A stretch of DNA of 64,000 bases from Pectinatus sottacetonis (GTDB lineage Bacteria > Bacillota > Negativicutes > Selenomonadales > Selenomonadaceae). Both the position numbers and the translations under genes were made by a program. Position 1 is the first letter of the stretch, and each line of letters begins with the position of its first letter. Location of the stretch: NCBI RefSeq assembly GCF_015732155.1, contig NZ_WIQK01000001.1, forward strand, positions 1,684,001 to 1,748,000. The letters are read 5' to 3'. Shown piece after piece: positions 14,450 to 62,063 of the stretch. A model generated the notes under the pieces. The model was given only the letters and a program-made list of their open reading frames with translations. It made no database searches and was not told the DNA's origin.

Positions 14450-14753
14450 CTAATGACGATGTGTAAAGTTGTTAGGAAAAATAATATAAATCCGATGATG
14501 GGAAAGAGTAATCATATCATAGTTGAATTACAGAGAACCGGCTCTAGGCTGAAAGGCTGGTATTCAAAGATTGATGAAAATCATCCCAGAGGAAAGATAC
14601 TGAAGTTAGAATTAGGTGTCTGCGATTGATCCCCGTTAGAGGAAATGCGTATGTTAGTACGTGATGAGTGCCATGTAATCGTAAGATTATATGGAATTTG
14701 GGTGGTAACTCGGAAATATAATCCGTCCCTTGTTTTAAGGGGCGGATTTTTTT
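14450..14753 (+). ncRNA. T-box leader (probable tRNA-Met) before a BASS transporter
   Basis: The T-box sequence GGGTGGTAACTCGG (14700-14713) can form the antiterminator. It precedes a terminator with a stem over ATCCGTCCCTT and its complement (14721-14747), then seven Ts. Upstream, GATGAT (14494-14499) pairs with ATCATC (14580-14585) to close stem I, with an AGAGTA motif on the 5' side and a GGCT-rich distal arm. The 3' side of the specifier loop reads GATGAAA, making AUG (14574-14576) the best specifier. The bulge UGGU predicts a tRNA discriminator A, as in tRNA-Met, and argues against the overlapping Asp or Glu codons. The T-box call is firm; the specifier is tentative. Confidence 0.85.
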
Positions 14754-14896
14754 ATTTATATTTTGGGTATAAAAGACAAATAATATGGCTATTAAAAAAT
14801 GATGCCGATAATTGTCTTTTAAGTATATAATTTTCTGTAATTATTTTGGCGCGCGAAATAATCAACAGATGTGATTTTTTGAAGAGAGGTATTGCC

Positions 14897-41519: not shown

Positions 41520-41548
41520 TTGAAATTTATTTAATTATAGTATATAAT
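41520..41548 (+). promoter_or_regulatory. Promoter upstream of leader element copy 1
   Basis: TTGAAA (41520-41525), 17 nt, TATAAT (41543-41548). It lies 65 nt before the conserved leader element. Confidence 0.7.
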
Positions 41549-41613
41549 CAGCTTGTTATCTTATTTTTGAATAATAATTCTCTAGTAGTAGATTAAATAC
41601 TAAAATTTAATAT

Positions 41614-41692
41614 ATAATGTAATGAACATTATGGAGGGCGGACGGGATGCAATAGATTGCTGTAGAACAGCAATTTTATTGCATCTTTTTTT
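41614..41692 (+). ncRNA. Conserved leader RNA element, copy 1
   Basis: Hairpin 1 is ATAATGT (41614-41620) with ACATTAT (41626-41632). A linker GGAGGGCGGACGG follows. Hairpin 2 is GATGCAATA (41646-41654) with TATTGCATC (41677-41685), enclosing ATTGCTG/CAGCAAT, then seven Ts. It is one of three copies in the window (others at 47528 and 58896). The downstream gene here is a relic, so this copy may now only terminate transcription. The rest of 41461-42058 holds the promoter and the epimerase relic. Confidence 0.75.
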
Positions 41693-41726
41693 GCCCTTTT
41701 TGTATGTATTTTTATATATTAATCAA

Positions 41727-41949
41727 GATAGTATTTATTTTGGTGATGTAGAGAGGCATTGAGAGCACATTAAAAATTAGTAAAGTAAATGAAATATATA
41801 ACCTGAGTATTGACAAACAAATAAATCTGAAAAACTTATATAGGTTTTTTCTGTACAGTAGAACAAAAATAAATGTTGTCTATAAAAATAAAAGATTAGG
41901 CGATATTTATCAGGGCATGCTTGATAATAAGGCTGGAGAAATGTTGTAA
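41727..41949 (+). pseudogene. Relic of a nucleotide-sugar epimerase (C-terminal part)
   Basis: Reading from 41727 gives DSIYFGDVER. After a one-frame shift near 41755 the text continues GIESTLKISKVNEIYNLS, then INLKNLYRFF, TKINVVYKNKRLGDIYQGM and DNKAGEML before TAA at 41947-41949. This is the C-terminal signature of SDR sugar epimerases (VRGI...NEIYNIS...RxGDI...KAxxLLGW). The next codons still resemble the end of the family (WGCPEL). The N-terminal 200 or so residues are gone. It lies directly after leader copy 1, so it was probably that leader's original gene. Confidence 0.65.
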
Positions 41950-42058
41950 TGGGGTTGTCCAGAGCTCTTTAAAAGAAGACATCAGGTGAATATATAATTA
42001 TTTTAAAGCAAAAAGCCAAAAATATATATACTGTAATGATTACAGCCAGGAGATTTAA

Positions 42059-43246
42059 ATGAATATTTTAATAGTAGGCGGATATGGATTCATTGGTTCT
42101 AATTTAGCAGAGAAATTACATAAAGAAGGGCACAGTATATTTCTTATTGATAAATTTATTAATGAAAAAATTAAATTTACATTTAAGCCAGTAATTTTTG
42201 TCTATAATGCTGCTGATAATGATAAATGCAGTAAGATTTTTGAGTTATATAATTTGGACATAATAATATATGCCGTAAATTCTAATATTAATGATGATAA
42301 GTCCAAACAGGAACAAATGTCAGGACTGGTAAATATTTTAGATTTATCCCGTATTCATAATATAAAAAAATTCATATTATTTTCTGATAAGGAAAATAAT
42401 ATTGCTTTGAAACAAAATAAAAATTATTTTTTCTTAAAAAAACAGGAAGAGTTATACTGTAAAGGATGGCAGGATATTTATAACATACCTGTTTCTATTG
42501 TGAAAATGACTAACGTTTACGGTCCTTATATGGCCTATAGTACATATCCTTCTGTTATCAATCAATTTTGTTGTGAACTTTTAAAAAAGAAAGAATTGGA
42601 TTGTAATGAAGATACCTTAAATTATAATATACAAAACTATATTTACATAATGGATTTAACAGAAGCAGTAAAACTAATAATTGAAAAAAAAAGCACGCCC
42701 TTTTACATAGATGTTTATAGCAAAGAAAATGTAATAATTGACCATTTAATTAGAATTGTTAAGGAAACAAAAATAATTACTAAAAACAATACTTCGTTTG
42801 ATAATATTTCTCGGTCAAAAAGCAGCAATGAGAAGGATACTTTTTGTCAAAGAGAACTTCACTGGACAGCAAGATATAACCTTGTAACAGGAATGGAAGC
42901 TGTATGGCAATGGTATAAAACGGCGTATATTCCTCAAAGCTCCCCCAAAATGCAGGAAAAACAAGTATGGAGAAAAGAAATATTGCCTTATATAGAAAAT
43001 ATAGTGATATTTGCCATCACAGCAGCATTAAATATAGCTATGCGTTATAATACCAGTTTTATCAATACAACAGGTATTGATTATAGTCAGATATATATTA
43101 TGCTTATGGGGCTACTATATGGAAAAAGGCAGTCAATCATAGCTGCTGTTTTATCTATGGGTTTATTTATTATATCTATAGGACTTAAAGGGATAGACAG
43201 CGTAGCGGCATTTTATCATATGGAGTATATAATTCATCTTGGTTAA
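42059..43246 (+). CDS. SDR epimerase fused to membrane segment, probably truncated
   Basis: 395 residues. Residues 1-290 are an extended SDR of the NAD-dependent epimerase type: NAD loop GGYGFIGSNLAEKL, active-site YFFLK (Y-x3-K), VKMTNVYGPYM. Residues from about 305 to 390 hold membrane helices (YIENIVIFAITAALNIAM; IYIMLMGLLYGKRQSIIAAVL). The membrane part looks like the start of a PelD-type four-helix region, and the protein stops in the middle of it, 31 nt before an IS30 element. Epimerase-PelD fusions belong to Pel exopolysaccharide loci, so I read this as a truncated regulator/epimerase (inference). AGGAGA precedes the ATG. Confidence 0.7.
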   Translation: MNILIVGGYGFIGSNLAEKLHKEGHSIFLIDKFINEKIKFTFKPVIFVYNAADNDKCSKIFELYNLDIIIYAVNSNINDDKSKQEQMSGLVNILDLSRIHNIKKFILFSDKENNIALKQNKNYFFLKKQEELYCKGWQDIYNIPVSIVKMTNVYGPYMAYSTYPSVINQFCCELLKKKELDCNEDTLNYNIQNYIYIMDLTEAVKLIIEKKSTPFYIDVYSKENVIIDHLIRIVKETKIITKNNTSFDNISRSKSSNEKDTFCQRELHWTARYNLVTGMEAVWQWYKTAYIPQSSPKMQEKQVWRKEILPYIENIVIFAITAALNIAMRYNTSFINTTGIDYSQIYIMLMGLLYGKRQSIIAAVLSMGLFIISIGLKGIDSVAAFYHMEYIIHLG

Positions 43247-43277
43247 TTGTATAATCAAATTGAACAGTAAATAAAAA

Positions 43278-44416
43278 ATCCATAGGGACTATTCACGTGT
43301 TAGAATATAATCACCACAAAAATATCTACACGGGAGAATAATCACTATGGACTACTCCAATTTTACCATAAATGAATCAGAACGCAAGCCTGGACAACAT
43401 CTTCAAAGAGAAGATCGTGGAGCTATTGAAAAGCTGCATCGTGAAGGTTACTCACTAAGAAAAATAGCTAAATTAATAAATTGTTCTCCAAGTACTGTAA
43501 TGTATGAATTGCGCAGAGGTACTGTATTGCGTAAACCCGGCAGAGGAAGACCACCAATTTACTTAGCAAAACGGGGACATAATGTCTATAAGCACAATCG
43601 TAAAGCATGCCATAAACCACATAAGTTAGATACTTGCAAATCCTTTGTAAAATGGGTTGTTAATGCATTTCACTTTAACGAATGGTCAATAGATGCCTGT
43701 GTCGGATATGCACGGGTTAATCAGCTATTTAGTAAATCCAAAATGTTGTCAACAAAAACCATGTACAACGAATTAAGAAAAGGCAATTTGCCAATTACAA
43801 TGTTTGACGTTCCTTATGTTTTGACGCGCAGACGCAAAAAGAACTACTATCGAATAAATAAACTACTAAAAGGAAGAAGTATCGAACAACGTCCCAAAAT
43901 AGTTGATGAAAATAGTCAGTTTGGACATTGGGAAATAGATACAGTAGTTGGTAAACGCAAAGGTCATGAAGAAGTTATCCTGTCGCTTATCGAACGTATA
44001 ACTAATAACTATTTTGCATTCAAAATCAGTGGCAAAACAAGTAATGCAGTAAATAAGGCTATGGAAAAACTTCGAGAAACATATGGTAGTAAATTTAATA
44101 AAGTATTTAAAACAATAACAGCGGATAATGGCTCAGAATTTGAGAAGTTGGCAGCGATTGAAAAGTGGGGTACAAAAGTTTACTTCACGCATCCTTACAG
44201 TTCTTACGAGCGGGCCAAAAACGAACGGCATAATGGCATGCTAAGAAAATTTGTGCCCAAAGGAGTTTCCATTAAAAGTTTTCGTTTTGAACAGATTCTT
44301 TCTTTTGCTGATAAACTCAATGGATTGCCTCGTAAATTATTAAATTACAAAACACCAGAAGAGCTGTTTGATGAAAATTTAGATAAAATATATTCTAACC
44401 AAAAGTAATTATGGAT
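43278..44416. mobile_element. IS30-family insertion sequence
   Basis: About 1.14 kb with imperfect terminal inverted repeats. The left end is ATCCATAGGGACT then TTAGAATATA (43278 on); the right end is its counterpart TATATTCTAAC then TTATGGAT (to 44416). One intact transposase. It is flanked by A-rich DNA, so the short target duplication cannot be read. A perfect 13-bp inverted repeat just outside it (43254-43266 and 44425-44437) shows insertion into the loop of a palindrome. Confidence 0.88.
43347..44408 (+). CDS. IS30-family transposase
   Basis: 353 residues. The N-terminal HTH is EGYSLRKIAKLINCSPSTVMYELRRG. The DDE integrase core has FGHWEIDTVVGKRKGH (first Asp), TITADNGSEF (second Asp) and ERAKNERHNGMLRKFVPKG (Glu). 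All catalytic residues are present and the frame is open, so the element looks functional. The start is ATG with GGGAGA upstream. Confidence 0.96.
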   Translation: MDYSNFTINESERKPGQHLQREDRGAIEKLHREGYSLRKIAKLINCSPSTVMYELRRGTVLRKPGRGRPPIYLAKRGHNVYKHNRKACHKPHKLDTCKSFVKWVVNAFHFNEWSIDACVGYARVNQLFSKSKMLSTKTMYNELRKGNLPITMFDVPYVLTRRRKKNYYRINKLLKGRSIEQRPKIVDENSQFGHWEIDTVVGKRKGHEEVILSLIERITNNYFAFKISGKTSNAVNKAMEKLRETYGSKFNKVFKTITADNGSEFEKLAAIEKWGTKVYFTHPYSSYERAKNERHNGMLRKFVPKGVSIKSFRFEQILSFADKLNGLPRKLLNYKTPEELFDENLDKIYSNQK

Positions 44417-44423
44417 AAAAAAA

Positions 44424-44760
44424 GTGTTCAATTTGATATTGCAATTTACGCCAGAAAAGTTTTCTGATAAAAAAAGTTATCTGGATGCATTGAAATCATC
44501 TTCGGCCGATTTATTGGTTATTGATTTGTATTATAATGATGTTCCACTAACAAAACAGGATTTGGAATATATTAAGATAAAAAATGATGGTAAGAAAAGA
44601 TTGGTTTATTCATATATGAGTATTGGTGAAGCAGAAAATTATCGTTATTATTGGAAAAAAGAATGGAGCAAAAATCTCCCTAAATGGATAGTAAGACAAA
44701 ATAGCGAATGGGCGGGAGATTTTGTTGTAAAATATTGGAATAAAGATTGGCAGAATATTC
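44424..44760 (+). pseudogene. GH114 family glycoside hydrolase, 5' fragment (interrupted)
   Basis: 112 residues in frame from GTG 44424 up to the IS21 insertion. SADLLVIDLYYNDVPLT, then VYSYMSIGEAENYRYYW, and WAGDFVVKYWNKDWQNIL are the beta-strand motifs of GH114 (endo-alpha-1,4-polygalactosaminidase, the PelA hydrolase-domain family). The signal peptide and first part of the barrel are missing because the IS30 right end abuts the fragment. The reading continues at 47171 after removal of IS21 and one target copy. Confidence 0.85.
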
Positions 44761-44874
44761 TGTGAATGTCAATGAAAAAGTGAGCCACTTGATGACGAAT
44801 TTTTGAGCCACTTTGCTAATGAATAATGGAGCCAGCTGATGATGAAAAAGTGAGCCACCTGAATACCAACATAC

Positions 44875-45621
44875 TTAGCATTTTTGCTGGCTGCTTTGTA
44901 GTCGGTAAGATTCTCCATTCATGTTTAATATATTTGAATGGTATGTTAAACGATCTACCAGGGCAGCTACCAGTGTGTCATTTGCAAACATTTCTGTCCA
45001 TCGCGAAAATGCCAAATTAGTTGTAATTATTGTGCTGCTTCGTTCAGATCGTTCAGCAATCACTTTAAATAGAAGTTCAGATTCTTCTTGGTTAAAACTT
45101 GCATAACTAAGTTCATCTATAAGTAGAAGGTCTACTCCAGCAAGCATCTTTTCTATTTTACGCAACTGGTAGTTATCACGAGATTCTCGTAATTCTGAAG
45201 CTAGTGTTGTAGCATTTTTGAATAATACTTTGTATCCTAATAAACATGCTTTAAGACCAATAGCACTCATCAAATGTGTTTTTCCTGTTCCGGGATTACC
45301 AATCATCACAAGGTTTTCATGACGACTAATAAAGTCACAATTAGCTAATTGTTTTACATATTCTGGCTTTACGTGTTGTAACTTGCTTAAATCGAATTCT
45401 TCTATTGTTTTTAATAAGGGGAAATGTGTTCTTTTTATTCGACGCTGACGCAATTTTTCTTGTCTGGAATCATATTCTCTTTTCATAATATCTAAGATGA
45501 ATTCATCTAGGCTTTGCCCAGCTTTAAAGTGGCTGACTGGTTCAGTGAGGTTACTAAAGGTTGGTAATTTTAACTGTTTAGCATAAAAAGCTAGGCTTTC
45601 TTTTATACCTGAATTTTGCAT
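44875..45621 (-). CDS. istB: IS21 helper ATPase IstB
   Basis: A 248-residue DnaC-like AAA+ ATPase assisting transposition. Walker A is GNPGTGKTHL, Walker B LLLIDELSYAS, followed by the STIITTNLAFSRW sensor. Overlaps the end of istA by 19 nt, the normal arrangement for translational coupling. Intact. Confidence 0.96.
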   Translation of the reverse strand: MQNSGIKESLAFYAKQLKLPTFSNLTEPVSHFKAGQSLDEFILDIMKREYDSRQEKLRQRRIKRTHFPLLKTIEEFDLSKLQHVKPEYVKQLANCDFISRHENLVMIGNPGTGKTHLMSAIGLKACLLGYKVLFKNATTLASELRESRDNYQLRKIEKMLAGVDLLLIDELSYASFNQEESELLFKVIAERSERSSTIITTNLAFSRWTEMFANDTLVAALVDRLTYHSNILNMNGESYRLQSSQQKC

Positions 45622-47048
45622 TGAGCTACAGCTCCTTTTTGGTATAGTTGATCATAATCAACTAAATTAACTGGCTGTACTAAAACAGTATCTTTAATTT
45701 TAGGTTTTATCGTATGACTGCTAAGAAATTCGCCTTTTCGCTGCCAAAAAGCAGGTTCACCTTTTTCTACACATAAGTTTAATATATTTATAAGCTCTTT
45801 ATCAGTGAAAGTAGTTGTTCTAAGAAGATTCATCAATTTTGAGCTAAGTGACTGATGTACTGGTTTTGCATGTAAAATACTTCGTGGTTTACGTTCTAGC
45901 AATGGAAGATAATGCTTAAGCTGTAATATTTGCTGGTTTCGTCCATAATTGCGAATATGACTGGCAATCATAACTCCGTTTATATAAATATTAATAAATT
46001 CGGCATGTGCTTTAACTGCTACTGTCTGTCCTGTATATTTTACTGGTACAGAATAAGTATTTGTAGAAAAACGAATCGTTGAGTAAGAAGATACCCTGCA
46101 TTGCGTAACTTGACTGGCATCATAAGGACGCATTGGTAAAGCTAAAAGATGCTGCCAGTCAGTTAATAGCATTGTCTTTACTGGCTGCTGTCTACTTATA
46201 ACCTTATGAGTATTGATATAATTTTGACAACGTATTTTTACTAATTTATTCAATGCTTCTAAAGTATCAATATGAGGGACGGGAACAAACATGTTTCTTC
46301 TAGTCAAACCGACCAAGTTTTCCACAAGTCCCTTCTCATTTCCACTTCGAACATTGCAAAAAATTGTCTCAAAACAATAATGTGCCGCTAATGCCGCGTA
46401 ACTTTCCTGACAAATTGCATGTTTGCCAGTGCCTTTTTTAACAGCAACTCTAGCATTATCAAAAATAACACGCCGGGGAACTCCATTAAAAAAAGCAAAG
46501 GCTTGTATTAATCCTTCTATAAAAGACTGTGTATTTTGTTTTCGAAAACATATAACAAATGGCGCACAGCTGTAACAAAGACGTGCACAAAATATATTTA
46601 CTTTTATTCTTTTATCAGCAAGCCACACATAACATTCTCCCCAATCAATCTGCAGAGCATCTCCAGGATTAAATTCCAAAGGAACAAAAGCTTCCGCTAA
46701 ATTACCGCGCATTTTATGAACCAATCCTCTAACAGTGCTTTGAGCACCACAAAAACCTATCTCATCAACTAATCGATTAAAAATGCGCTTTGCAGTATGA
46801 TGTTGTTTTTTATTAGGTTCTAATTCATCATCATGTAAACATTTTTGAATAAACTGGATGATATCTGGTGTCATGATGCTGGCATTACGTTGATAATCTG
46901 CACGGATTCCAGGATAACAATTACCCTGGCAATACTTAGCTACAGTATTACGAGAAATATTCATTTCTTTAGCAATTTGACGCTGACTTTTCTTTTCAAT
47001 TAAAAACTTACGCCGGATTATTTCATAATCTTGCATAGTGATAATCAC
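45603..47048 (-). CDS. istA: IS21 transposase IstA
   Basis: 481 residues. An N-terminal HTH (KSQRQIAKEMNISRNTVAKYCQG) is followed by a DDE integrase core: ALQIDWGECYVWL (first Asp), RRVIFDNARVAVKKG (second Asp) and GNEKGLVENLVG (Glu). A C-terminal beta-domain (SSYSTIRFSTNTYSVPVKYTG) is typical of IstA. Frame complete, so the element may still move. Confidence 0.96.
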   Translation of the reverse strand: MIITMQDYEIIRRKFLIEKKSQRQIAKEMNISRNTVAKYCQGNCYPGIRADYQRNASIMTPDIIQFIQKCLHDDELEPNKKQHHTAKRIFNRLVDEIGFCGAQSTVRGLVHKMRGNLAEAFVPLEFNPGDALQIDWGECYVWLADKRIKVNIFCARLCYSCAPFVICFRKQNTQSFIEGLIQAFAFFNGVPRRVIFDNARVAVKKGTGKHAICQESYAALAAHYCFETIFCNVRSGNEKGLVENLVGLTRRNMFVPVPHIDTLEALNKLVKIRCQNYINTHKVISRQQPVKTMLLTDWQHLLALPMRPYDASQVTQCRVSSYSTIRFSTNTYSVPVKYTGQTVAVKAHAEFINIYINGVMIASHIRNYGRNQQILQLKHYLPLLERKPRSILHAKPVHQSLSSKLMNLLRTTTFTDKELINILNLCVEKGEPAFWQRKGEFLSSHTIKPKIKDTVLVQPVNLVDYDQLYQKGAVAQCKIQV

Positions 47049-47456: not shown

Positions 47457-47485
47457 TTGCTTAATTATTTACAATAGTATATAAT
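47457..47485 (+). promoter_or_regulatory. Promoter of the tad pilus operon
   Basis: TTGCTT (47457-47462), 17 nt, TATAAT (47480-47485), 42 nt before leader element copy 2. Confidence 0.75.
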
Positions 47486-47527
47486 ACTTTTGTATTAGAG
47501 AAAATATGAGAAATTTAAATTGAATAT

Positions 47528-47610
47528 ATAATGTTAAACATTATGGAGGGTGGATGGGATGCAATAACCATCGTACATTTTGTATTGTGTACGGGCTTAT
47601 TTATTGCATC
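47528..47610 (+). ncRNA. Conserved leader RNA element, copy 2
   Basis: ATAATGT (47528-47534) pairs with ACATTAT (47538-47544). The linker is GGAGGGTGGATGG. GATGCAATA (47558-47566) pairs with TATTGCATC (47602-47610), with an inner CGTACA/TGTACG hairpin unlike those of the other copies. The U-tract is weak here (TATTTTAC), but a separate strong terminator follows 25 nt later. Upstream of the whole Tad operon. Confidence 0.78.
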
Positions 47611-47635
47611 TATTTTACACTGCCGATGTTTGAAG

Positions 47636-47672
47636 CCGGATAAAAGTGAGATGCTTTTATCCGGTTTTTTTT
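47636..47672 (+). terminator. Leader terminator in front of cpaB
   Basis: Perfect 11-bp stem CCGGATAAAAG (47636-47646) with CTTTTATCCGG (47654-47664), 7-nt loop, then eight Ts. It lies between the promoter and the first pilus gene, so the operon needs readthrough or antitermination. Confidence 0.88.
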
Positions 47673-47752: not shown

Positions 47753-48700
47753 TTGCGTTCTTTTAAATTGATGGAATTTTTAACCAAAAAGCTGGAAAAA
47801 TTCTCTTCACAGCAGCTTATTATTATGGCAGCTGTGACTGCGGTATTGTTTTCTGTAATATTGGGAATATATCTTTCTTCGCTGCAAAAAGCGGCTGAGA
47901 AAGTTAAAACAGGAAATATGACGACTGTTATTATGGCAAATCAGGATATTCCCATAAATACGACATTAAAAGAGAATATGCTTAAAACTGTAATGCTGCC
48001 AGCTGATTCATTGCCTGCTACGCCAGTATCTAATATGGCTGATGCTGTAGGGAAAATTGCCAAAATTCCTATAATGGCAGGAGATATAGTAACAATACCA
48101 AAATTATTCATAAATTCAGAACTGGCAGGTTTTGTGGGAACAATTCCAGATAACTGTCGGGCAATTTCGGTAAAAATCTCTGATGTAACTGGCGTGGCAG
48201 GTTTTGCCAGACCTGGTGATCATGTGGATGTTGCCTTTGTTGCTAATGGAAGAAATGGCCGGTCAGGAAAAATCATTTTGCAGAACATACTTTTACTGGG
48301 GATAAATAGTACAGCTATAGACAAGGAAAAGACGAAAAAAAAGGATGATAATCATACTGAACCGAAATTGGCAACTGCTACACTGGCAGTACCACCGGAA
48401 GACGCTCTGAAACTGGCAGTAGCGCAGAGTGAAGGAACAGTGTTCCTGGTGCTGAGACCATTTAAGCCAGATGAAGGCTTTATTGCTGATACGGATTATT
48501 TTATCCCGCGCGATGGGCAAATAAATGATAAACAAAATACGGATAATAATCCTAGGGAACATTATCCAATTACACCAGGACAAGCACCTGCATTGGCGCA
48601 AGCCCATTATGAAGCTGCGCAGCCGGTTATGCCAGTAGATAATGGACATAGTATTACTATTATACGCGGTACAGCGAAGAGCAAAGTTGAGGTTAGGTGA
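47753..48700 (+). CDS. cpaB: Flp pilus assembly protein CpaB/RcpC
   Basis: 315 residues. One membrane segment (about 20-40) is followed by a SAF domain (VIMANQDIPINTTLKENM) and an RcpC domain (ISVKISDVTGVAGFARPGDHVDVAF). CpaB acts in the periplasm with the secretin. A TTG start is proposed at AAGGGAG spacing 9; an ATG 18 nt later lacks a ribosome site. The Pro/Ala-rich tail is variable. First gene of the Tad operon, behind a leader with a terminator. The stop overlaps the secretin GTG/ATG region. Confidence 0.92.
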   Translation: MRSFKLMEFLTKKLEKFSSQQLIIMAAVTAVLFSVILGIYLSSLQKAAEKVKTGNMTTVIMANQDIPINTTLKENMLKTVMLPADSLPATPVSNMADAVGKIAKIPIMAGDIVTIPKLFINSELAGFVGTIPDNCRAISVKISDVTGVAGFARPGDHVDVAFVANGRNGRSGKIILQNILLLGINSTAIDKEKTKKKDDNHTEPKLATATLAVPPEDALKLAVAQSEGTVFLVLRPFKPDEGFIADTDYFIPRDGQINDKQNTDNNPREHYPITPGQAPALAQAHYEAAQPVMPVDNGHSITIIRGTAKSKVEVR

Positions 48701-48702
48701 AG

Positions 48703-49971
48703 ATGAAAAAGGACTACATAATAAGATGGGTAATGCTTTTGTTAGTTTGTATTTTTGCTTCTGCTGTCTGCAATAATAAAGTGTTTGCTGAACCAACAGC
48801 ATTATCAATCGGGATAAACAAATCATATTCATTGGATACAGGGGGAAATATTTCGCGTATTGCGGTTGCAGACCCAAGTATTGCCGATGCTACAGCAGCT
48901 GCGGCAGATAATTTACTGATAGTGGCAAAAAAACCGGGGGCAACTACACTGTGGGTGTGGACGCAGGATGGCATGGAACAGCAGTTTATTGTCAATGTGG
49001 TCACAGATAATACAGATATTGAAGCAGCAATAAGGGCAGCAATGCCGGGGACGAATGTACAGGTACAAAAATCCGGCGATAATATACTGCTGCGGGGAAA
49101 AGTCAAAAATCAGTATCAAAAAGATACAGCCGAAAAAATTGCTGGACTTTATGGCAGCAAAGTAGTCGATTTGCTGCAGATGTCTGACCCGTTCCAGATT
49201 CGTATCGAAGCTCAGGTCATAGAAATATCCATGGACAAAGAAAAAAATCTAGGCTTTTTATTTTCAAATCCGGCAAATATTGAATCAGCAACTGGAATTG
49301 TTACTCTGGGAACAACAGGCAGTTTTGCAGTTGGACAGACTTTTAACCGCAGTTACGCTGATCTTGATGCTACTCTGCAGGCCATGGAGAAGAAGGGGGA
49401 TGCCAGAATATTGTCCCGGCCTAATATAATGACCTTAAGCGGCAAAAAGGCATCAATTCTCATTGGCGGGAAAATACCTATTCCGGTTAGTAATAAAGAT
49501 GGGAATGTGACAATAGAATGGCGTGATTATGGGATAAAGCTTAATGTTGAGCCGGTGGTGGATGCAGCAGAAAACATTACCACCAATGTGAAAGCCGAAG
49601 TAAGCACGCTGGATTATTCACATGAAGTGAAAAATAACAGTTTTTCAATTCCCGCACTGAGTTCGCGTGAAGCGTCGACTGATATTACGATGAAGTCAGG
49701 GGCGACAATGGCAATCGGTGGACTTATAAATTCACAAGAAAGCAAAACAATCACTAAAATGCCTATATTAGGAAATTTGCCGATAATCGGCCAGTTTTTC
49801 CGCCATACTTCCAAGACGCGTGATAAAAGGGAACTTATTATATTAATTACGCCAACTCTGGTTAATGCGGATACCCCGGTAAAAATGTCATCGGATATGG
49901 AAAAATATTATGCGAAGAACCAAGAAGATTCACGCAAAGATATAGATGTCAATAAAGAAAAAAGCAATTAG
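48703..49971 (+). CDS. cpaC: Flp pilus secretin CpaC/RcpA
   Basis: About 422 residues. A signal peptide (MKKDYIIRWVMLLLVCIFAS...) precedes the pilus-formation N-domain (LSIGINKSYSLDTGGNISRIAVADPSIA region), a BON-like module (NQYQKDTAEKIAGLYG) and the secretin domain (ILSRPNIMTLSGKKASILIGGKIPIPV, ending SREASTDITMKSGATMAIGGLI). It forms the outer-membrane channel for the pilus, further evidence for a diderm cell. GTG 48697 is an alternative start. Confidence 0.94.
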   Translation: MKKDYIIRWVMLLLVCIFASAVCNNKVFAEPTALSIGINKSYSLDTGGNISRIAVADPSIADATAAAADNLLIVAKKPGATTLWVWTQDGMEQQFIVNVVTDNTDIEAAIRAAMPGTNVQVQKSGDNILLRGKVKNQYQKDTAEKIAGLYGSKVVDLLQMSDPFQIRIEAQVIEISMDKEKNLGFLFSNPANIESATGIVTLGTTGSFAVGQTFNRSYADLDATLQAMEKKGDARILSRPNIMTLSGKKASILIGGKIPIPVSNKDGNVTIEWRDYGIKLNVEPVVDAAENITTNVKAEVSTLDYSHEVKNNSFSIPALSSREASTDITMKSGATMAIGGLINSQESKTITKMPILGNLPIIGQFFRHTSKTRDKRELIILITPTLVNADTPVKMSSDMEKYYAKNQEDSRKDIDVNKEKSN

Positions 49972-50031
49972 ATGTATTAGTTATGATTTTGTGTATTTTA
50001 TTGCCAGGGATAAAAGGAGATTTATCATAAT

Positions 50032-50847
50032 ATGGAAGAACAGCAGCGGGGAAAAGTAATAACAGTTTTCAGCACAGCATCTGCTGTGGGGAAAACATTG
50101 CTGTCCATAAATATGGCGGCGGAGTTTGCCGGCATGGGCTATAAAGTCTGTCTTGTCGATTTGGATCTGCAGTTTGGCGATGTGGGCAATTATCTTAAAC
50201 TTCAAGGGAAAAGTACTATATTTGATTTAATGGAAGCAGATAAGAGAAATGCCAGTGTTTTTGATATGGGCAGTATTTTTACGCATTATGTACAGGGAAA
50301 CATTGATTTCATGGTTCTGCCGGCACCAAGCAAGCTTGAGCAGTCCTATAACATTTCAGCAGAAGAGATCAGCCGCTGCATAAGCCGCTTTATCCCCAAA
50401 TTTGATTATATAGTTATAGATACTACATCAGCATTCAGTGAACTGAATCTGGCTGTAATGGATTTTAGTACGATAATAACATTTGTCGGGATTGTTGATT
50501 TTATTCCAACAATAAAAAACATGAAAATAGGATATGATACCATGTGTTCCATAGGCTGTGACAATAAAAAAATACGCTTGGTATTGAACCGCAGTAATTC
50601 AAAGACAAATATTGAACTGAATGATGTTGAACAACTCTTGGGAGAAAAGTTTTATCATGTTATTCCCAATGATTTTGCAGAGGCCCAGCAGTCTGTTTAT
50701 GCTGGAATTCCGCTTCTGGCAACAGGGAAGAATACTCTTTTGCGGCAAAGTATCCAGCAGCTGGCAGCCAAATATACTGATACACAGCTTAATGATGCTG
50801 CGGAGCAAAAGGGTGTGTCCGGCTGGGTGAAAAGAATATTCAAGTGA
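50032..50847 (+). CDS. TadZ/CpaE-like MinD-family ATPase, first copy
   Basis: A 271-residue MinD/ParA-type protein without a receiver domain. The P-loop reads FSTASAVGKTLL. The final GKT is kept but the signature Lys of MinD-type loops (KGGxGKT) is replaced. VDLDLQFGDVGNYLKL and YIVIDTTSAFSELN are the Walker A' and B segments. TadZ proteins place the pilus machine at a pole. It lies between the secretin and a second, longer CpaE-like gene, 13 nt upstream of it. Confidence 0.88.
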   Translation: MEEQQRGKVITVFSTASAVGKTLLSINMAAEFAGMGYKVCLVDLDLQFGDVGNYLKLQGKSTIFDLMEADKRNASVFDMGSIFTHYVQGNIDFMVLPAPSKLEQSYNISAEEISRCISRFIPKFDYIVIDTTSAFSELNLAVMDFSTIITFVGIVDFIPTIKNMKIGYDTMCSIGCDNKKIRLVLNRSNSKTNIELNDVEQLLGEKFYHVIPNDFAEAQQSVYAGIPLLATGKNTLLRQSIQQLAAKYTDTQLNDAAEQKGVSGWVKRIFK

Positions 50848-50860
50848 GGAGGCGTCGTAA

Positions 50861-52015
50861 ATGGCAAAATACCATATTCTTTTAGTAGAAAGAAGCCGTA
50901 TGATGCTCGAGCGGCTATCCGTTGTTATCCGCAATGGCAGGAACTTTGTATTGGCAGGACGTTTTGGCTACGCACAGGAAGCGTTGGAAGAAACAGCTGG
51001 TATGAACTTGAATCTGGTATTGCTTGATACAGACATGCCGGAAAATGCATTACTTATACCAGCTTTCAGAAAACAATTTCCTAAAGCAGCATTGATTTGT
51101 CTGGGCAGTAACTGGAATGCCCAGGCGGCCAGCCAGATAGTAAAAGCAGGAGCAAGCGGCTATCTTGTAAAACCCTTTACCGGCCCGGAACTCGTAAAAG
51201 CAATAGAAACATTCAGCAAGGGTGATGTCGGCAGTATTTCTGATGTACTGGCATTCTTCAGTCCCAAGGGGAAAAGCGGCAAGACAACACTTATTGCTAA
51301 TTTGGCACTGAGCCTGGCCCGCAAGACAAAAGAAGATGTGGGAATTATTGATGCCGATGTCCAGTTTGGCGATATGGCAGTGTTTTTCAATCTTAAACCG
51401 CAAAGCACTATAGTAGAAGCTGTGCGTGATATTAAGTTTTTGTCACCGGTAACGCTGGGAACATATTTTGCAGCTGTCAATAAGAATGTGCATGTTTTAT
51501 GTGGTACGAAACGGCCTGAATTTGCTGAGCAGATAGAGATGAAGAATTTCAATGCGACCATAAACATGGCACGTAGTTTATACCGGTATATATTAGTGGA
51601 TCTGCCACCAGCATTTACTCCTGTATCAATAACAGCCGCTGAATGTGCTGATACGGTTTATCTGGTGGCAATGGACAGCGGGGCGGGAAAAGGCAATACA
51701 GGTTTTGAAGTGCAGCATATGAAACGGGCTTTGGCGATATTTAATGATGGCTGGGCAGAGCAAGCCCCACATAAAGTAAAGACTATTTTTACCCGTGTGA
51801 ACCCATGTAGTGATGCGGCAAAACGCCGTCTGGGAGAGCTTATAAGCTATCCTGTGAGTGCCATAATTCCCAATGAGTATACGCTGGTATCACAGGCAGC
51901 CAATAACGGTCGTATGGCAGTTGATATCGACCCGGACTCAGAACTGACTTATAATATAGACCTTTTGGCTGATATGATACGGAAAAAGTCAGAACAAAGG
52001 TGGGAAAAAGTATGA
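50861..52015 (+). CDS. cpaE: CpaE/TadZ ATPase with receiver-like domain, second copy
   Basis: 384 residues. Residues 1-120 are a response-regulator-like domain (LVLLDTDMPENALL with the phospho-Asp position, GYLVKPF Lys). It lacks the usual N-terminal acidic pair, so phosphorylation is doubtful. Residues 130-380 are a MinD-type ATPase with FSPKGKSGKTTLIANLA and VGIIDADVQFGDMAVFF. Together with the preceding gene this gives two unequal TadZ proteins. GGAGGCG precedes the ATG, and the end overlaps tadB. Confidence 0.9.
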   Translation: MAKYHILLVERSRMMLERLSVVIRNGRNFVLAGRFGYAQEALEETAGMNLNLVLLDTDMPENALLIPAFRKQFPKAALICLGSNWNAQAASQIVKAGASGYLVKPFTGPELVKAIETFSKGDVGSISDVLAFFSPKGKSGKTTLIANLALSLARKTKEDVGIIDADVQFGDMAVFFNLKPQSTIVEAVRDIKFLSPVTLGTYFAAVNKNVHVLCGTKRPEFAEQIEMKNFNATINMARSLYRYILVDLPPAFTPVSITAAECADTVYLVAMDSGAGKGNTGFEVQHMKRALAIFNDGWAEQAPHKVKTIFTRVNPCSDAAKRRLGELISYPVSAIIPNEYTLVSQAANNGRMAVDIDPDSELTYNIDLLADMIRKKSEQRWEKV

Positions 52016-52980
52016 TATTGATCGTAATAATATGCGGCATATTGTTTTTCTGTCTGCTGCTTTTATTAATAACATATATGCGCTATGACCATAGCAAGGT
52101 AGCACAGCGCATGCATAATTATATTGCTGGAAACGATGGTCAGAGTGATTTTGCAAGAGCGAGGAACAGGGAAACATGGCAGGAACAGTTTATGTATATT
52201 GTCCATATTCTGTCTGGATATTTTACAAAACTGCGCCGCACGCAGAATCTTGATAAAAAGATGCAGCAGGCAGGCTTGCCGCTGCTCGGTTCCGAGTTCA
52301 TTATCATAACAGGGATCATTAGTGCTGCCGCGGCACTGGTGACAGCACTGATGACACTGCACTGGTATATGGCTGTGGCAGCAGCCACAGCGGCCGCAGT
52401 AATATGCCAGGTATATCTTAATCTGAAAATAACTAAACGTCGGCAGGCTTTTACTAACCAATTGGGAGATACACTTTCTATGATTGCCGATGCTATGCGG
52501 TCGGGGTTCAGTTTTATGCAGTCTATTGAGCTGGCAGCAAGGGAAATGAAGCCGCCTATTGGCGAGGAGTTTGCTAAAATGCTGGCAGAAACACGTATGG
52601 GGATTCCTACAGAGCAGGCCCTGCAGTCGATGGCAGACCGGGTGGCAAGCCGTGACTTTGATCTCATCATGGCTGCGGTGCTTATCCAGCGCCAGGTCGG
52701 CGGGGATTTATCATATATTCTTGATAATATCAGCAGTACAGTTGTTTCCCGTATTAAAATGAAACGGGAAATAAAGACACTTACGTCACAAGGACGTATG
52801 TCCGGCTCGATACTGCTGGCTCTGCCATTTGCCATGGCGGCAATATTAAGCTTCATGAACCCGGCTTATTTGCAGCCGCTCATTACTAAACCGGTAGGAC
52901 ATATGGCTGTGGGTGGGGCTATTGTCTTAGAAATTATCGGCTATATAGTAATCCAGCGTATTGTTGATATTGATGTTTAA
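52012..52980 (+). CDS. tadB: Pilus inner-membrane platform protein TadB
   Basis: About 322 residues. Membrane helices lie near the N-terminus, around 95-140 and at the C-terminus. A GspF/T2SF domain is marked by MIADAMRSGFSFMQSIELAAREM and EFAKMLAETRMGIPTEQALQSMADR. It anchors the TadA motor. A frame from GTG 52000 exists; AAAGGTGGG spacing favours ATG 52012. TadB and TadC are separated here by flp, tadE and tadA. Confidence 0.92.
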   Translation: MILIVIICGILFFCLLLLLITYMRYDHSKVAQRMHNYIAGNDGQSDFARARNRETWQEQFMYIVHILSGYFTKLRRTQNLDKKMQQAGLPLLGSEFIIITGIISAAAALVTALMTLHWYMAVAAATAAAVICQVYLNLKITKRRQAFTNQLGDTLSMIADAMRSGFSFMQSIELAAREMKPPIGEEFAKMLAETRMGIPTEQALQSMADRVASRDFDLIMAAVLIQRQVGGDLSYILDNISSTVVSRIKMKREIKTLTSQGRMSGSILLALPFAMAAILSFMNPAYLQPLITKPVGHMAVGGAIVLEIIGYIVIQRIVDIDV

Positions 52981-53032
52981 GCAGCAGCTTTTACATATAT
53001 TCATTATTTTTTATTTTAAAGGAGAGATTTTA

Positions 53033-53227
53033 ATGTTTGCTATGTTAAATTATTTGAGAGTAAAGTATTTTGGGGAAAAAGGCCAGGGAATTGTTGAATA
53101 TGCCTTGATTTTGGCAGCAATCGTTGTATTAGCCGCGGCATTATCAACCGGTAGCTTAGGTACAGCTGTAACCAATACATTTAAGTCAGTAGCTGATAAA
53201 TTAACTGGAACTGGAACTGGAAACTAA
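53033..53227 (+). CDS. flp: Flp-type major pilin
   Basis: A 64-residue prepilin. The type IVb processing site is G17|QGIVEY with the conserved Glu and Tyr at +5/+6, followed by a 20-residue hydrophobic helix (ALILAAIVVLAAAL). A short Thr/Gly-rich tail ends the mature pilin (about 47 residues). The frame is open from 52961, but AAAGGAGAG points to ATG 53033. Cleaved by the peptidase at 57999. Confidence 0.94.
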   Translation: MFAMLNYLRVKYFGEKGQGIVEYALILAAIVVLAAALSTGSLGTAVTNTFKSVADKLTGTGTGN

Positions 53228-53398
53228 ATAGGTTTATATTAGACAAAATAAGAGCCGTACATAATATAATATATAGGCATGGACAAATAAGTGCTGCTGA
53301 GGCATTTTGCATATCTATTATATTATGTGCGGCAATACTGTGAAATATTTCAAATGGCAAGAGTTTTATTCAGTTTGTTTAAGAAGTGGTGTGATTTA

Positions 53399-53806
53399 AT
53401 GAAGCAATGGCAGAAGGGACAGTCTATAGTTGAATTGGCGTTTGTATTGCCGATGTTTTTATTGTTTTTTTTAGGTATAGCATATTTAGGGATGATTTTC
53501 GCCGATTATCTTACACTTTCGGAAATAGCGCGTGATAGTGCCAGATATGCTGCAGTTATGCCTGCTGATACAACAGCGGCACAGATCCGCGGCAGATACA
53601 GTGACCGAAAACTGCCAGCATCATTATATAAGTGGGATTACAGCAGCGGAGCTGATTTTGCAGTTGTCTTAGATCAAGGGGCAGCTGGAGATAAATTTGT
53701 CGAAGTCACATTGAAAGCAGAAATAAACAATAACCAAAATGTATTCAGCCTTGTTTTACCGGCAGAGCTTTCCGCCAGCTGCAAGATGCGCCGGGAAGCA
53801 CAATGA
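53399..53806 (+). CDS. tadE: TadE-like minor pilin
   Basis: About 135 residues. A prepilin-like start KGQSIVELAFVLPMFLLFFLG (G7|QSIVEL) gives one helix, followed by a mostly beta C-terminal part (FVEVTLKAEI). TadE/TadF proteins are pseudopilins processed by the same peptidase. The frame is open upstream to 53291 without a good ribosome site. I place the start at 53399 because family members begin just before the GQSIVE motif. 172 nt after flp. Confidence 0.85.
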   Translation: MKQWQKGQSIVELAFVLPMFLLFFLGIAYLGMIFADYLTLSEIARDSARYAAVMPADTTAAQIRGRYSDRKLPASLYKWDYSSGADFAVVLDQGAAGDKFVEVTLKAEINNNQNVFSLVLPAELSASCKMRREAQ

Positions 53807-53858
53807 TATTGAATATACACAGCAGTAATGCTGTTTAAAATAAATGGGGAGCGATAAG

Positions 53859-55262
53859 ATGTCACTGTTGCAGCGCTTAGGAAAAGATGATGAATTTGAT
53901 GAAGTAAAGCCGATTTTTGGCAAGCGGGGAAAAGATGACAGTGAGGATGTTTATCAGCAGATAAAGATCGAGATACATGGCCGCATTGTTGAAGAAATGG
54001 ATGCGGAACAGCAGCTGCTGCTGGAAAATGCCGGGCATGACCAAGCCGAAAAAGACAGGCTGGAGGAATTTATAGCACAGTACTGCCAGCGGGTATTGAG
54101 TGAACATCCGTTCACTTTGCCGCGGGCAGAGCAGCTGTCGCTTGTTTCTGATATCCGTGATGAAATATTAGGTTTGGGTCCGATCGAGCCGCTGCTGAAA
54201 GATGATACGGTAACAGAAATTATGATCAATGGGCCGAAGACTGTATTTGTTGAACGTATGGGAAAACTGCATTTGACAAAGGTGTGTTTTCAGGATACAG
54301 CACATCTCATGCATATTATTGAACGGATACTCACACCGTTAGGCCGTCGTTTGGATGAATCATCTCCGTTGGTCGATGCCCGTCTGGCGGATGGATCACG
54401 TGTAAATATTATAATACCGCCGTTGTCACTTGTCGGCCCGTGTGTCACTATAAGAAAGTTTTCGCATACGCCTCTTTCTGTAGAAAATTTGATAAGTTTT
54501 GGTACGCTGGATCATGATATGGCTGTTTTTTTGCGAGCCTGTGTAAAAGCCCGGCTGAATATCATGGTGTCAGGCGGTACTGGTTCGGGAAAAACGACAA
54601 CGCTTAATGTATTATCATCATTTATTCCTGACGGTGAGCGCATCGTTACTATAGAAGATGCCGCTGAACTGCGGCTGCAGCAAAAGCATGTTGTGACGCT
54701 GGAAGGACGCCCAGCTAATATAGAAGGGAAAGGAGCCATTACCATTCGTGATTTAGTGCGTAATGCGCTTCGTATGCGTCCTGATCGGATTATTGTCGGG
54801 GAAGTGCGCTCCGGGGAGGCACTTGATATGCTCCAGGCAATGAATACAGGGCATGACGGTTCGCTTACAACAGCCCATGCCAATGGGCCGCGTGATGTAT
54901 TGAGCCGTTTGGAAACAATGGTGCTTATGTCAGGTATGGAACTTCCGGTCAGGGCCATAAGGGAACAGATATCCTCGGCGCTTGATTTAATCCTGCACCA
55001 GTCGCGCATTCAGGATGGGAGCCGCAAAGTTACCTATATTACGGAAGTCCAGAAAATGGAAGGGGATGTCATAGTCCTTCAGGATATTTTCCGTTATGTC
55101 CAGACAGGTGTGGATAAAAATGGCAAAGTTGTGGGGCGCTTTGAATCAACTGGTATACAGCCTGCTTTTCTGCATAAATTTAAGATGGAAGGCATAGATA
55201 TACCCGTGGAATTGTTTGAAGGTGATGCTTTTAATAATAAGGGAGAGAAAATAGATGGATAA
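53859..55262 (+). CDS. tadA: Tad pilus secretion ATPase TadA/CpaF
   Basis: A 467-residue type II/IV secretion ATPase. An N-terminal helical domain (to about 130) is followed by the core: MVSGGTGSGKTTTLNVL (Walker A), TIEDAAELRLQ (Asp box), RMRPDRIIVGEVRSGEALDML (Walker B) and TTAHANGPRDVLSRLE (His box). It powers pilus extension at the cytoplasmic face. GGGGAG favours ATG 53859 over 53844. Overlaps tadC by 8 nt. Confidence 0.96.
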   Translation: MSLLQRLGKDDEFDEVKPIFGKRGKDDSEDVYQQIKIEIHGRIVEEMDAEQQLLLENAGHDQAEKDRLEEFIAQYCQRVLSEHPFTLPRAEQLSLVSDIRDEILGLGPIEPLLKDDTVTEIMINGPKTVFVERMGKLHLTKVCFQDTAHLMHIIERILTPLGRRLDESSPLVDARLADGSRVNIIIPPLSLVGPCVTIRKFSHTPLSVENLISFGTLDHDMAVFLRACVKARLNIMVSGGTGSGKTTTLNVLSSFIPDGERIVTIEDAAELRLQQKHVVTLEGRPANIEGKGAITIRDLVRNALRMRPDRIIVGEVRSGEALDMLQAMNTGHDGSLTTAHANGPRDVLSRLETMVLMSGMELPVRAIREQISSALDLILHQSRIQDGSRKVTYITEVQKMEGDVIVLQDIFRYVQTGVDKNGKVVGRFESTGIQPAFLHKFKMEGIDIPVELFEGDAFNNKGEKIDG

Positions 55263-56205
55263 TTTGTGGATTGCTTTATTAGGCGGTATAGTACTTTTTA
55301 TCATCTTATATATACTCATTATTGCGGTAACTTTACCCAAGACAAAGGTTCAGCAGCGCCTGCGTTTTTTTGATATACAAGCAGGAAGTAATCCTGCAAG
55401 GAACCAGGAAGCACGGAAAAATACCAATATGAAAGATATTCCTTTTGGTGAAAGAGTTCTCAAACCACTGTATAAAAAACTGGAAAATACATTTTTAAAA
55501 TTGACACCGCTGGCAATTCGGCAGCTGCTGGCAGAAAAAATATTATATGCCGGCAGACAGCATAAGTGGAACGTGAATACAGTCACTGTCTGCTGGCTTT
55601 TTTCAATGGCAGCCGGATTTGTTTTAGCGTTTATATTTGTATCAAGGCAGGGGCAGTATATATATATACAAAAAGTGATTATATTACTGTTAGGCTTATT
55701 TATTGGCGGGTATATACCTTTTTCTGTTTTGAATATCCTTATTGGACAGCGTCAGCAGACTATTCTACGGCAGCTGCCGGAGGTACTGGACCTGCTTTGT
55801 GTAAGTGTACAGGCTGGATTGTCTTTTGATGCATCGCTGGCAAAGATAGTGGAACGGATGAAAGGCGCATTTGTGGAAGAATGTGCGAAAATGCTGCGGG
55901 ATGTGCGAATGGGCATGACGCGGCGGATGGCACTGCAGAATATGTCGGCACGCTGTAATTTGCAGGAAGTGTATTTATTTGTCACAGCCATCATCCAGTC
56001 TGAACGGCTGGGAACGAGTATGGGAAAGACGCTTACTGCCCAGGCTGATAATATGCGCGAACGACGGATGCAGTCAGTAAAGGCACAAGCACTGAAAGCA
56101 CCAATAAAAATAATATTTCCTTTAGTATTGTTTATTTTTCCGGCATTATTCGTTATTGTACTGCTGCCGCCACTTTTGTCATTTACACAGAATATGCTGC
56201 CATAA
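55255..56205 (+). CDS. tadC: Pilus inner-membrane platform protein TadC
   Basis: A 316-residue T2SF/GspF-domain protein. An N-terminal helix, two central helices (about 110-165) and a C-terminal helix surround LRQLPEVLDLLCVSVQAGLSFDASL and CAKMLRDVRMGMTRRMALQNMSARC. It pairs with TadB. Starts inside the end of tadA. Confidence 0.94.
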   Translation: MDNLWIALLGGIVLFIILYILIIAVTLPKTKVQQRLRFFDIQAGSNPARNQEARKNTNMKDIPFGERVLKPLYKKLENTFLKLTPLAIRQLLAEKILYAGRQHKWNVNTVTVCWLFSMAAGFVLAFIFVSRQGQYIYIQKVIILLLGLFIGGYIPFSVLNILIGQRQQTILRQLPEVLDLLCVSVQAGLSFDASLAKIVERMKGAFVEECAKMLRDVRMGMTRRMALQNMSARCNLQEVYLFVTAIIQSERLGTSMGKTLTAQADNMRERRMQSVKAQALKAPIKIIFPLVLFIFPALFVIVLLPPLLSFTQNMLP

Positions 56206-56237
56206 AGATAGTGAAGAAAAGGGAAGTGGACATTATA

Positions 56238-56588
56238 ATGCCGGAAAGACACATAACAAAGCCGCCGCTTCATATTGAAACGGCGGATAATTTTATCAGG
56301 CGGTTCATAGGACTTATGGGACGGAAAAATATGCCTGATGACTATGGATTGCTCATATATCCATGCAATAGCATCCATATGTGTTTTATGCGGTTTGCCA
56401 TCGATGCCGTTTATCTGGATAAGCAGTATACAATAATAAAAATAGTGGAAAATCTGCGTCCGTGGCTGGGAATAAGCGCCTGCTGGAAAGCCAGGGCTGT
56501 GTTGGAAGTGGCAGCAGGTACAGCAGAAAGATATAAATATGTTGTTGGTATGAAACTGCCCGTAAATAATAAAACTACTTATTTTTAA
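56238..56588 (+). CDS. DUF192 family protein
   Basis: About 116 residues of one DUF192 domain: AFTGMRF-type core seen here as IRRFIGLMGRKNMPDDYGLLIYP, then HMCFMRFAIDAVYLD, IKIVENLRPW and the terminal VLEVAAGTAERY. Function unknown. It commonly accompanies pilus or secretion genes in Negativicutes-like loci by position only. GTG 56211 is possible, but GGGAAGTGG fits ATG 56238. Last gene on this strand before the convergent TadG-like gene. Confidence 0.88.
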   Translation: MPERHITKPPLHIETADNFIRRFIGLMGRKNMPDDYGLLIYPCNSIHMCFMRFAIDAVYLDKQYTIIKIVENLRPWLGISACWKARAVLEVAAGTAERYKYVVGMKLPVNNKTTYF

Positions 56589-56650: not shown

Positions 56651-57811
56651 TCAGTCATCAGTCAGAATAACCTGGGAAAAAGGACTGTCAAAAGATTTAT
56701 AAGTGTAGCTTCCTTCTACCTGTGAATAATATGATTGGCAATAGATGCTGCCTGAAAAAGCTGCCTTATTTTCATTAGTCAAAATCTTAGTCTTAGGGGC
56801 ATATATTATGCCGGTGAATGTTGGAACACCAGGCCCCGGATTGTAGTGGATTTCACCAGTCCCTGTATAGTAGATGATTAAAGGACGTCCCGTATCTGAA
56901 TTTACGTGGATGTTTAACACACCGGGATTATCATATACGAGAATGAGCGGAATATTTTTTTTCTCTGGATCATTTGAGCCGGGAAGCGGTTTATCAATAA
57001 CTATATCAGGGCTTTCCTGATCAATATATATTATTTTACCGGTCAATTTATCAGAAGAAATAACTTTATTGCTGCCGAAAGAAGGGTTTATATTATCAGC
57101 AGATTTTTTTAAGGCACTGAGGGAAAAAGGAGTATTGGAAAAATCGGGCATATTATCACGCTGATAAGGGGTTATTTGTTCTCCGCTAGAGGAATAAATG
57201 GCATTTTGTATTTGGTCAGGTGGATTATTGTTGTTATTACTGGTTTCTATGCTGTTATAACCATCTGCGGGAGATACATAACCAATAGTTCCGTCAAAAG
57301 TTGTTTTATATTGATTGTTTTGGTGTCCCTGCGTAATATGTAATATTTGGGAAAATCTTATTAAATCAGCAAAAGCTGCCAGGGGGTTTACTACTTGGGC
57401 ATTGGCTGTTGCCGATATATCCATTTGATTATAGCCGAATAATCTTAAAAAATACATAGGAACAGTGTCGTTTAATGTCAGCTTTAATTTTGTTATACCA
57501 TTGTTAACAGTTATAACAGGGTAGCTGGAGGTTGCCGGAACAGGATTATTGAAACCAGAACCATGATTTAAGTGCTTATTGTCATTAATGTATTCTAAAG
57601 CTGTATTTTGCGCGTCATTAGAATCCTGCGTATGAGAATATTCCTGTGCGGCAGCAAGTACAGAGGCATCAGTCATATTCTGCAGCTGGGACTTGTGGAC
57701 ATAAACATTGCCAAAATCAACAGCAAGGCCGGTGAAAGCGATCAAAGCAGGAAGAATAAGGGCAAAAAATACCAAAACGGCGCCTTTCTGCCAATTGATG
57801 AAATGTTTCAT
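56651..57811 (-). CDS. TadG-like pilus assembly protein
   Basis: 386 residues. The N-terminal TadE/G motif KGAVLVFFALILPALIAFTGLAVDFGNVYVHKSQLQNMTDASVLAAAQ (helix about 10-32) identifies it. The long external part is Asn/Pro/Ser-rich and beta-predicted and may be an adhesive or structural tip. Unusually it lies on the opposite strand to the rest of the Tad locus, between DUF192 and the prepilin peptidase, so it is controlled separately. There is no clear ribosome site beyond AGGAGT about 10 nt upstream. Confidence 0.85.
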   Translation of the reverse strand: MKHFINWQKGAVLVFFALILPALIAFTGLAVDFGNVYVHKSQLQNMTDASVLAAAQEYSHTQDSNDAQNTALEYINDNKHLNHGSGFNNPVPATSSYPVITVNNGITKLKLTLNDTVPMYFLRLFGYNQMDISATANAQVVNPLAAFADLIRFSQILHITQGHQNNQYKTTFDGTIGYVSPADGYNSIETSNNNNNPPDQIQNAIYSSSGEQITPYQRDNMPDFSNTPFSLSALKKSADNINPSFGSNKVISSDKLTGKIIYIDQESPDIVIDKPLPGSNDPEKKNIPLILVYDNPGVLNIHVNSDTGRPLIIYYTGTGEIHYNPGPGVPTFTGIIYAPKTKILTNENKAAFSGSIYCQSYYSQVEGSYTYKSFDSPFSQVILTDD

Positions 57812-58811: not shown

Positions 58812-58840
58812 TTGCTTATTAATTAAATATAAGATATAAT
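58812..58840 (+). promoter_or_regulatory. Promoter upstream of leader element copy 3
   Basis: TTGCTT (58812-58817), 17 nt, TATAAT (58835-58840), 55 nt before the element. Identical hexamers to the tad promoter. Confidence 0.75.
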
Positions 58841-58895
58841 ACAAACTGTATTACTTATTATTGGAATATAATTCTCTGGTACTAAAAAATAATAT

Positions 58896-58975
58896 ATAAT
58901 GTATGGGCATTATGGAGGGTGGATGGGATGCAATAAGCTGCTATTTTTATAGCGGTTTTATTGCATCTTTTTTTT
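58896..58975 (+). ncRNA. Conserved leader RNA element, copy 3
   Basis: ATAATG (58896-58901) pairs with CATTAT (58908-58913). The linker is GGAGGGTGGATGG. GATGCAATA (58927-58935) pairs with TATTGCATC (58959-58967) around GCTGCTA/TAGCGGT (two G-U pairs), then eight Ts. It is 92 nt upstream of the sugar dehydrogenase. The 58650-59067 gap holds only this leader and its promoter. Confidence 0.78.
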
Positions 58976-60381: not shown

Positions 60382-60419
60382 GCTTAAAAATGAATTGGAA
60401 AAAGGGATGGGGGCTGTTT

Positions 60420-62033: not shown

Positions 62034-62063
62034 CGAATAGTAATTATGCGAGGAGGAATGCTT

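Follow-up and report, generated by a model that had tools for sequence, protein, structure and literature searches.

How transcription into the tad pilus operon of Pectinatus sottacetonis is controlled, and why the leader of this operon holds a conserved element followed by a second, separate terminator, are the questions raised by the window analyzed here, i.e. the 64,000 nucleotides at positions 1,684,001–1,748,000 (forward strand) of contig NZ_WIQK01000001.1 (assembly GCF_015732155.1). The element is composed of a hairpin (P1), a G-run and a second hairpin (P2), and the window contains three copies of it. Their features, together with the genes located behind them, are collected in Table 1.

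Table 1. Leader features and downstream genes of the three element copies (window coordinates; T2, second terminator).
Feature	Position	Strand	Details
Copy 1	41520-41692	+	promoter 41520-41548, P1 41614-41632, G-run 41633-41647, P2 41646-41685, U-tract 41686-41692
Epimerase fragment behind copy 1	42059-43246	+	42% to N-terminal half of P. cerevisiiphilus L100:4497-6629
Copy 2, promoter	47457-47485	+	TTGCTT 47457-47462, 17 nt, TATAAT 47480-47485; sigma70-type; predicted start ~47492
Copy 2, P1	47528-47544	+	ATAATGT-TAA-ACATTAT; abuts G-run
Copy 2, G-run	47545-47559	+	GGAGGGTGGATGGGA
Copy 2, P2	47558-47610	+	arms GATGCAATA 47558-47566 and TATTGCATC 47602-47610
Copy 2, T2	47636-47672	+	11-bp perfect stem, CCGGATAAAAG-TGAGATG-CTTTTATCCGG 47636-47664; eight Ts, TTTTTTTT 47665-47672
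tad operon behind copy 2	47753-56588	+	Pfam
RcpC/CpaB	47753 (start)	+	Pfam, tad operon
Secretin	48697 (start)	+	Pfam, tad operon
ATPases	50032, 50861 (starts)	+	Pfam, tad operon
TadB/C-like	52000, 55255 (starts)	+	Pfam, tad operon
Flp-like pilin	~53032-53227	+	from translation
TadE	53291 (start)	+	Pfam, tad operon
TadA-type ATPase	53844 (start)	+	Pfam, tad operon
DUF192	56211 (start)	+	Pfam, tad operon
Copy 3	58812-58975	+	promoter 58812-58840, P1 58896-58913, G-run 58914-58928, P2 58927-58967, U-tract 58968-58975
Exopolysaccharide operon behind copy 3	59068-64000	+	UDP-sugar dehydrogenase, unknown, deacetylase; GT2 and GH18 past window end

Further copies were searched for with covariance models that reached from P1 through the G-run to the 5' arm of P2 and were applied first to 189 family genomes and next to 380 class genomes (the two sets overlap). 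This revealed nine copies in total, all of them in four species of Pectinatus (three in P. sottacetonis, one in P. cerevisiiphilus, three in P. frisingensis and two in P. brassicae), and no convincing copy outside the genus in either set. Weak model hits from outside the genus (L010-L014, L062-L067) lacked the hairpins or had an unrelated sequence context, and the same applied to pattern matches in non-Pectinatus genomes (L076-L084) and to viral ones (L146-L162). A repeated GGGTGGGYGGGYGGGATGAAAAAATTTTTTTC-like sequence, whose G-run is of the three-tetrad type and stands next to an A/T inverted repeat, was observed in one genome of the family (G147; L067, L010, L075). In the 2.69-Mb P. sottacetonis genome the strict pattern gave three matches, all within the window. 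When the pattern GGNGGGNGGN{1,2}GGGA was applied to five Pectinatus genomes, it recovered the nine elements, and its other matches were poly-G runs only, confined to one contig of the fifth genome, from which the element is absent according to this search. No Rfam family of any kind matched over the element, and a search of open-licence papers gave nothing relevant on Pectinatus riboswitches. The element is a real leader RNA, restricted to the genus so far and apparently undescribed. Elsewhere in the window, a T-box leader (RF00230, 128 bits) was found at 14486-14733, upstream of an ORF at 14846.

The core of the element is the G-run (consensus GGNGGGYGG-N1-2-GGGA), in which ten Gs and the A after them never change across the nine copies, the spacers vary in base and their length differs once. 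It continues into the extended block GGNGGGYGG-N1-2-GGGA(U)GCAAUA (GCAATA is kept in eight of the nine copies), the 3' third of which is the 5' arm of P2. In eight copies P1 lies directly against the G-run, and its arms change yet stay complementary; compared with shuffles copy by copy, it is only modestly better. In P2, three of nine pairs are changed on both sides, a result matched by 1 of 500 shuffles and never when the sequence was slid. The 5' arm of P2 remains GATGCAATA in copy 2 and in the P. brassicae tad leader, in both of which P2 has no terminator role, and therefore it is kept for more than termination. A promoter of the form TTGNNN-17-TATAAT is present in six of the nine copies, with the predicted start 53-80 nt ahead of the G-run. 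Two coding readings of the region were rejected, namely a small protein (ATGGAGGGTGGATGGGATGCA..., MEGGWDAI...), which in L009 and L017 has lost its ATG and in copy 1 has a different frame after the stem, and a tiny ORF, ATG-CAA-TAA, lost in L016.

Terminators of -15 kcal/mol or lower were found in eight of the nine leaders versus none of 225 shuffled leaders, which, with the six promoters, is the layout of an intrinsic-terminator attenuator. P2 itself is the predicted terminator in copies 1 and 3 and in the leaders P. frisingensis DH, P. frisingensis tad (if its stem is taken to reach into the G-run) and P. brassicae XRE, the last of which has a separate hairpin in addition. In copy 2, P. brassicae tad and P. 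frisingensis MCP the predicted terminator is a separate hairpin; these are the terminator-bearing copies with a poor P2 U-tract (three of three).

For copy 2, the first-pass annotation had described a P2 with a poor U-tract and, 25 nt later, a perfect 11-bp stem with eight Us. Both descriptions proved accurate: the sequence after 47610 is TATTTTAC, and T2 begins 25 nt past the end of P2, reaching -21.0 kcal/mol when folded alone (z -7.16; equalled by 0 of 200 shuffles). The second hairpin of P. brassicae tad (L099) shares the sequence ATAAAAG/CTTTTAT with T2 and differs from it by two compensatory changes (CCGG/CCGG in copy 2 versus CCAA/TTGG), and thus the separate terminator cannot be put down to chance in one copy. 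The proposed division into a conserved core and an exchangeable terminator module also stood, as all nine copies keep the G-run block and the terminator is either P2 or a separate hairpin, but its other half, a sensor wired to the expression platform, found no counterpart in the folds. Forbidding P2 or T2 costs 11-18 kcal/mol and nothing substitutes, T2 is not visibly linked to the element, and no mutually exclusive antiterminator was detected in any leader by folding limited to nested helices, i.e. neither pseudoknots nor quadruplexes. Pairing of the G-run with downstream pyrimidines was seen in many folds, yet did not exceed shuffles (Fisher p 0.23) and was discarded as a switch. The pel leader of P. 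cerevisiiphilus (L100:3437-3546) carries the element, no intrinsic terminator was found in it, and control there may differ. The epimerase gene of this species starts ~110 nt past the element, with a clear ribosome-binding site.

Genes for pili, polysaccharides or chemotaxis lie downstream of eight of the nine copies. By class, the targets are Tad operons in three species, two exopolysaccharide operons, two pel loci (an intact one and the IS-broken remnant behind copy 1), one chemotaxis receptor and a single gene of unclear nature. All three species that bear rcpC have the element before the Tad operon, and the G-run is unchanged between them at an RcpC identity of 42-47%. An exopolysaccharide operon encoding a UDP-sugar dehydrogenase, a deacetylase, GT2 and GH18 is located behind both copy 3 and a P. 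frisingensis element (L095), the P. cerevisiiphilus element precedes a pel-type operon encoding PelG and PelF-like proteins, the third P. frisingensis target is a 4HB-type chemotaxis receptor (MCP) and the second P. brassicae target is a small XRE-like gene. The earlier statement that all Tad genes lie behind the element has to be corrected, as a TadG-like gene (56651-57811) is encoded on the minus strand, opposed to the remaining tad cluster. An IS21-like transposase gene (Mu-transpos_C_2; 45603-47048, minus strand) begins just before the tad promoter region, and the ORF at 44875-45621 is its likely partner. In the interval 41633-44765, copy 1 precedes what remains of an IS-broken pel-type exopolysaccharide locus, consisting of the epimerase fragment, an IS30-like transposase and a GH114 fragment; PelG is absent from the P. 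sottacetonis genome.

We consider it rather likely that the element is a cis-acting Pectinatus leader RNA that works by attenuation to control how surface-matrix operons are transcribed, i.e. that it is probably an attenuator. RNA made from the sigma70-type promoter can fold P1 and then the invariant block, whose 3' third supplies the 5' arm of P2, and termination would be the default. A metabolite or an RNA-binding protein may bind the block, possibly organizing the G-run into a ligand-stabilized quadruplex on P1. Because the unchanging block includes the 5' arm of P2, such binding would compete with P2, withhold this arm and let the polymerase proceed. In copies that have lost the P2 U-tract (tad of two species and one MCP), the separate hairpin would terminate instead, and T2 might act as a clamp, as in the Bc1 riboswitch considered below, or might be overridden by processive antitermination. 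Several observations speak against this model: an antiterminator helix has no candidate in any leader, T2 is not visibly tied to the element and a second terminator masks the response in Bc1, P. cerevisiiphilus carries the element without an intrinsic terminator, and RNA quadruplexes of two tetrads are usually unstable by themselves.

A terminator of -21 kcal/mol placed after the element with no competing helix would be explained by processive antitermination, in which the nascent P1, G-run and P2 load a factor on, or modify, RNA polymerase so that it reads through P2 and later terminators, and the targets are indeed long pilus and polysaccharide operons. However, all five Pectinatus genomes have one NusG each and therefore no RfaH/LoaP paralogue (a resemblance to the RfaH ops site, GGCGGTAG versus GGTGGTAG, was ruled out on the same ground), no Rfam model of any kind matches the element, and the element's own terminator comes directly after it; this reading seems unlikely to us. 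Plain leader terminators that damp transcription, duplicated between loci and without regulatory input, would agree with the failure to find a competing structure and with the upstream sequence common to copies 1 and 3. They leave unexplained the invariant ten-G block between independently varying hairpins, as well as its conservation before tad in three species whose proteins are 42-47% identical, and we regard them as a very improbable explanation.

CsrA typically targets pili and matrix, each of the five Pectinatus genomes has a single csrA gene, and GGA motifs occur within GGAGGGUGGAUGGGA; CsrA bound to such motifs between the hairpins could control termination or stability of biofilm-gene messages. 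Nevertheless, the motifs are not conserved (the first GGA is GGT in four of nine copies and the second is lost in others) and the invariant Gs include those outside GGA, and hence a CsrA target leader was rejected as highly doubtful. The G-run could also be a site at the DNA level, where a protein on the duplex or on the single-stranded non-template strand blocks or pauses the polymerase and the hairpins are incidental. Its similar position, 53-80 nt from the predicted start in six copies, would suit this, but P2 covaries and the arms of P1 change together while staying complementary, as expected for RNA, which makes a DNA site the least probable of these alternatives.

For attenuation, our best guess at the signal, given as a tentative lead only, is c-di-GMP or a c-di-GMP-dependent factor. 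Elsewhere, c-di-GMP riboswitches control genes for pili, chemotaxis and adhesion (PMC6366702). In the family, c-di-GMP riboswitches are rare (5 of 61 genomes), and none of the c-di-GMP-I type was detected in the P. sottacetonis genome. A c-di-GMP-I riboswitch lies before rcpC of the tad genes in a different genus of this family (L109:923-1007, L110:2315-2399), and the fifth Pectinatus genome has one with a terminator (L105:9484-9574) before an MCP gene that is 47% identical to the P. frisingensis MCP gene preceded by the element. This placement before rcpC and an MCP gene is no more than a functional parallel to the element. The MCP swap was rejected as proof of c-di-GMP sensing, since the two receptors show only weak similarity in their N-terminal halves; their orthology is thus doubtful, and they may be paralogues.

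If true, one kind of leader RNA would govern the biofilm programme of these beer-spoilage bacteria, being common to their Tad pili, a chemotaxis receptor and two exopolysaccharide pathways. The invariant G-run offers a clean mutational target, and the nine natural variants with exchangeable terminators make sensing separable from stopping.

Among known systems, EAR, put RNA and LoaP rely on hairpins that form in the RNA near the start of long operons, frequently those for surface polysaccharides. The element differs from them in having an internal terminator, in lacking an Rfam match (that of EAR RNA was looked for over the element and not found) and in a host without a NusG paralogue. It also departs from ANTAR target RNAs, i.e. 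two stems with hexanucleotide loops, as the P1 loops have 3-8 nt and the inner parts of P2 23-47 nt. Four G-tracts with short loops, the hallmark of G-quadruplexes, are present and invariant in all nine copies, and a quadruplex is predicted to adjoin P1 in seven of the nine nascent leaders. The tract spacing, GG-N-GG-(GY)-GG-N1-2-GG, is like that of RNA G-quadruplex aptamers and GG motifs, although the element could form two tetrads only; two-tetrad RNA quadruplexes are usually unstable alone and can be induced by ligands or proteins (PMC11602125). In a distinctly improbable model, the element would be a natural riboswitch governing attachment and matrix formation in Pectinatus as a whole, with a ligand-stabilized quadruplex stacked on P1 as its aptamer, and might represent an additional c-di-GMP sensor class. 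A G-run folded into a ligand-bound quadruplex would be unusual among natural aptamers. The c-di-GMP-I riboswitch (RF01051) resembles the element in being a leader RNA ahead of genes for pili, chemotaxis and matrix, frequently together with a terminator. Its core differs and there is no sequence or structure match; even with hits up to E = 10 admitted, neither the c-di-GMP-I nor the c-di-GMP-II model of Rfam matched any element. In the Bc1 c-di-GMP-I riboswitch of Bacillus thuringiensis, a second terminator remains folded and masks the response (PMC11218506). Bc1 differs in that its aptamer is known, and it is similar to what we propose for copy 2 in combining one sensor with two rho-independent terminators, which in Bc1 lie 28 bp apart.
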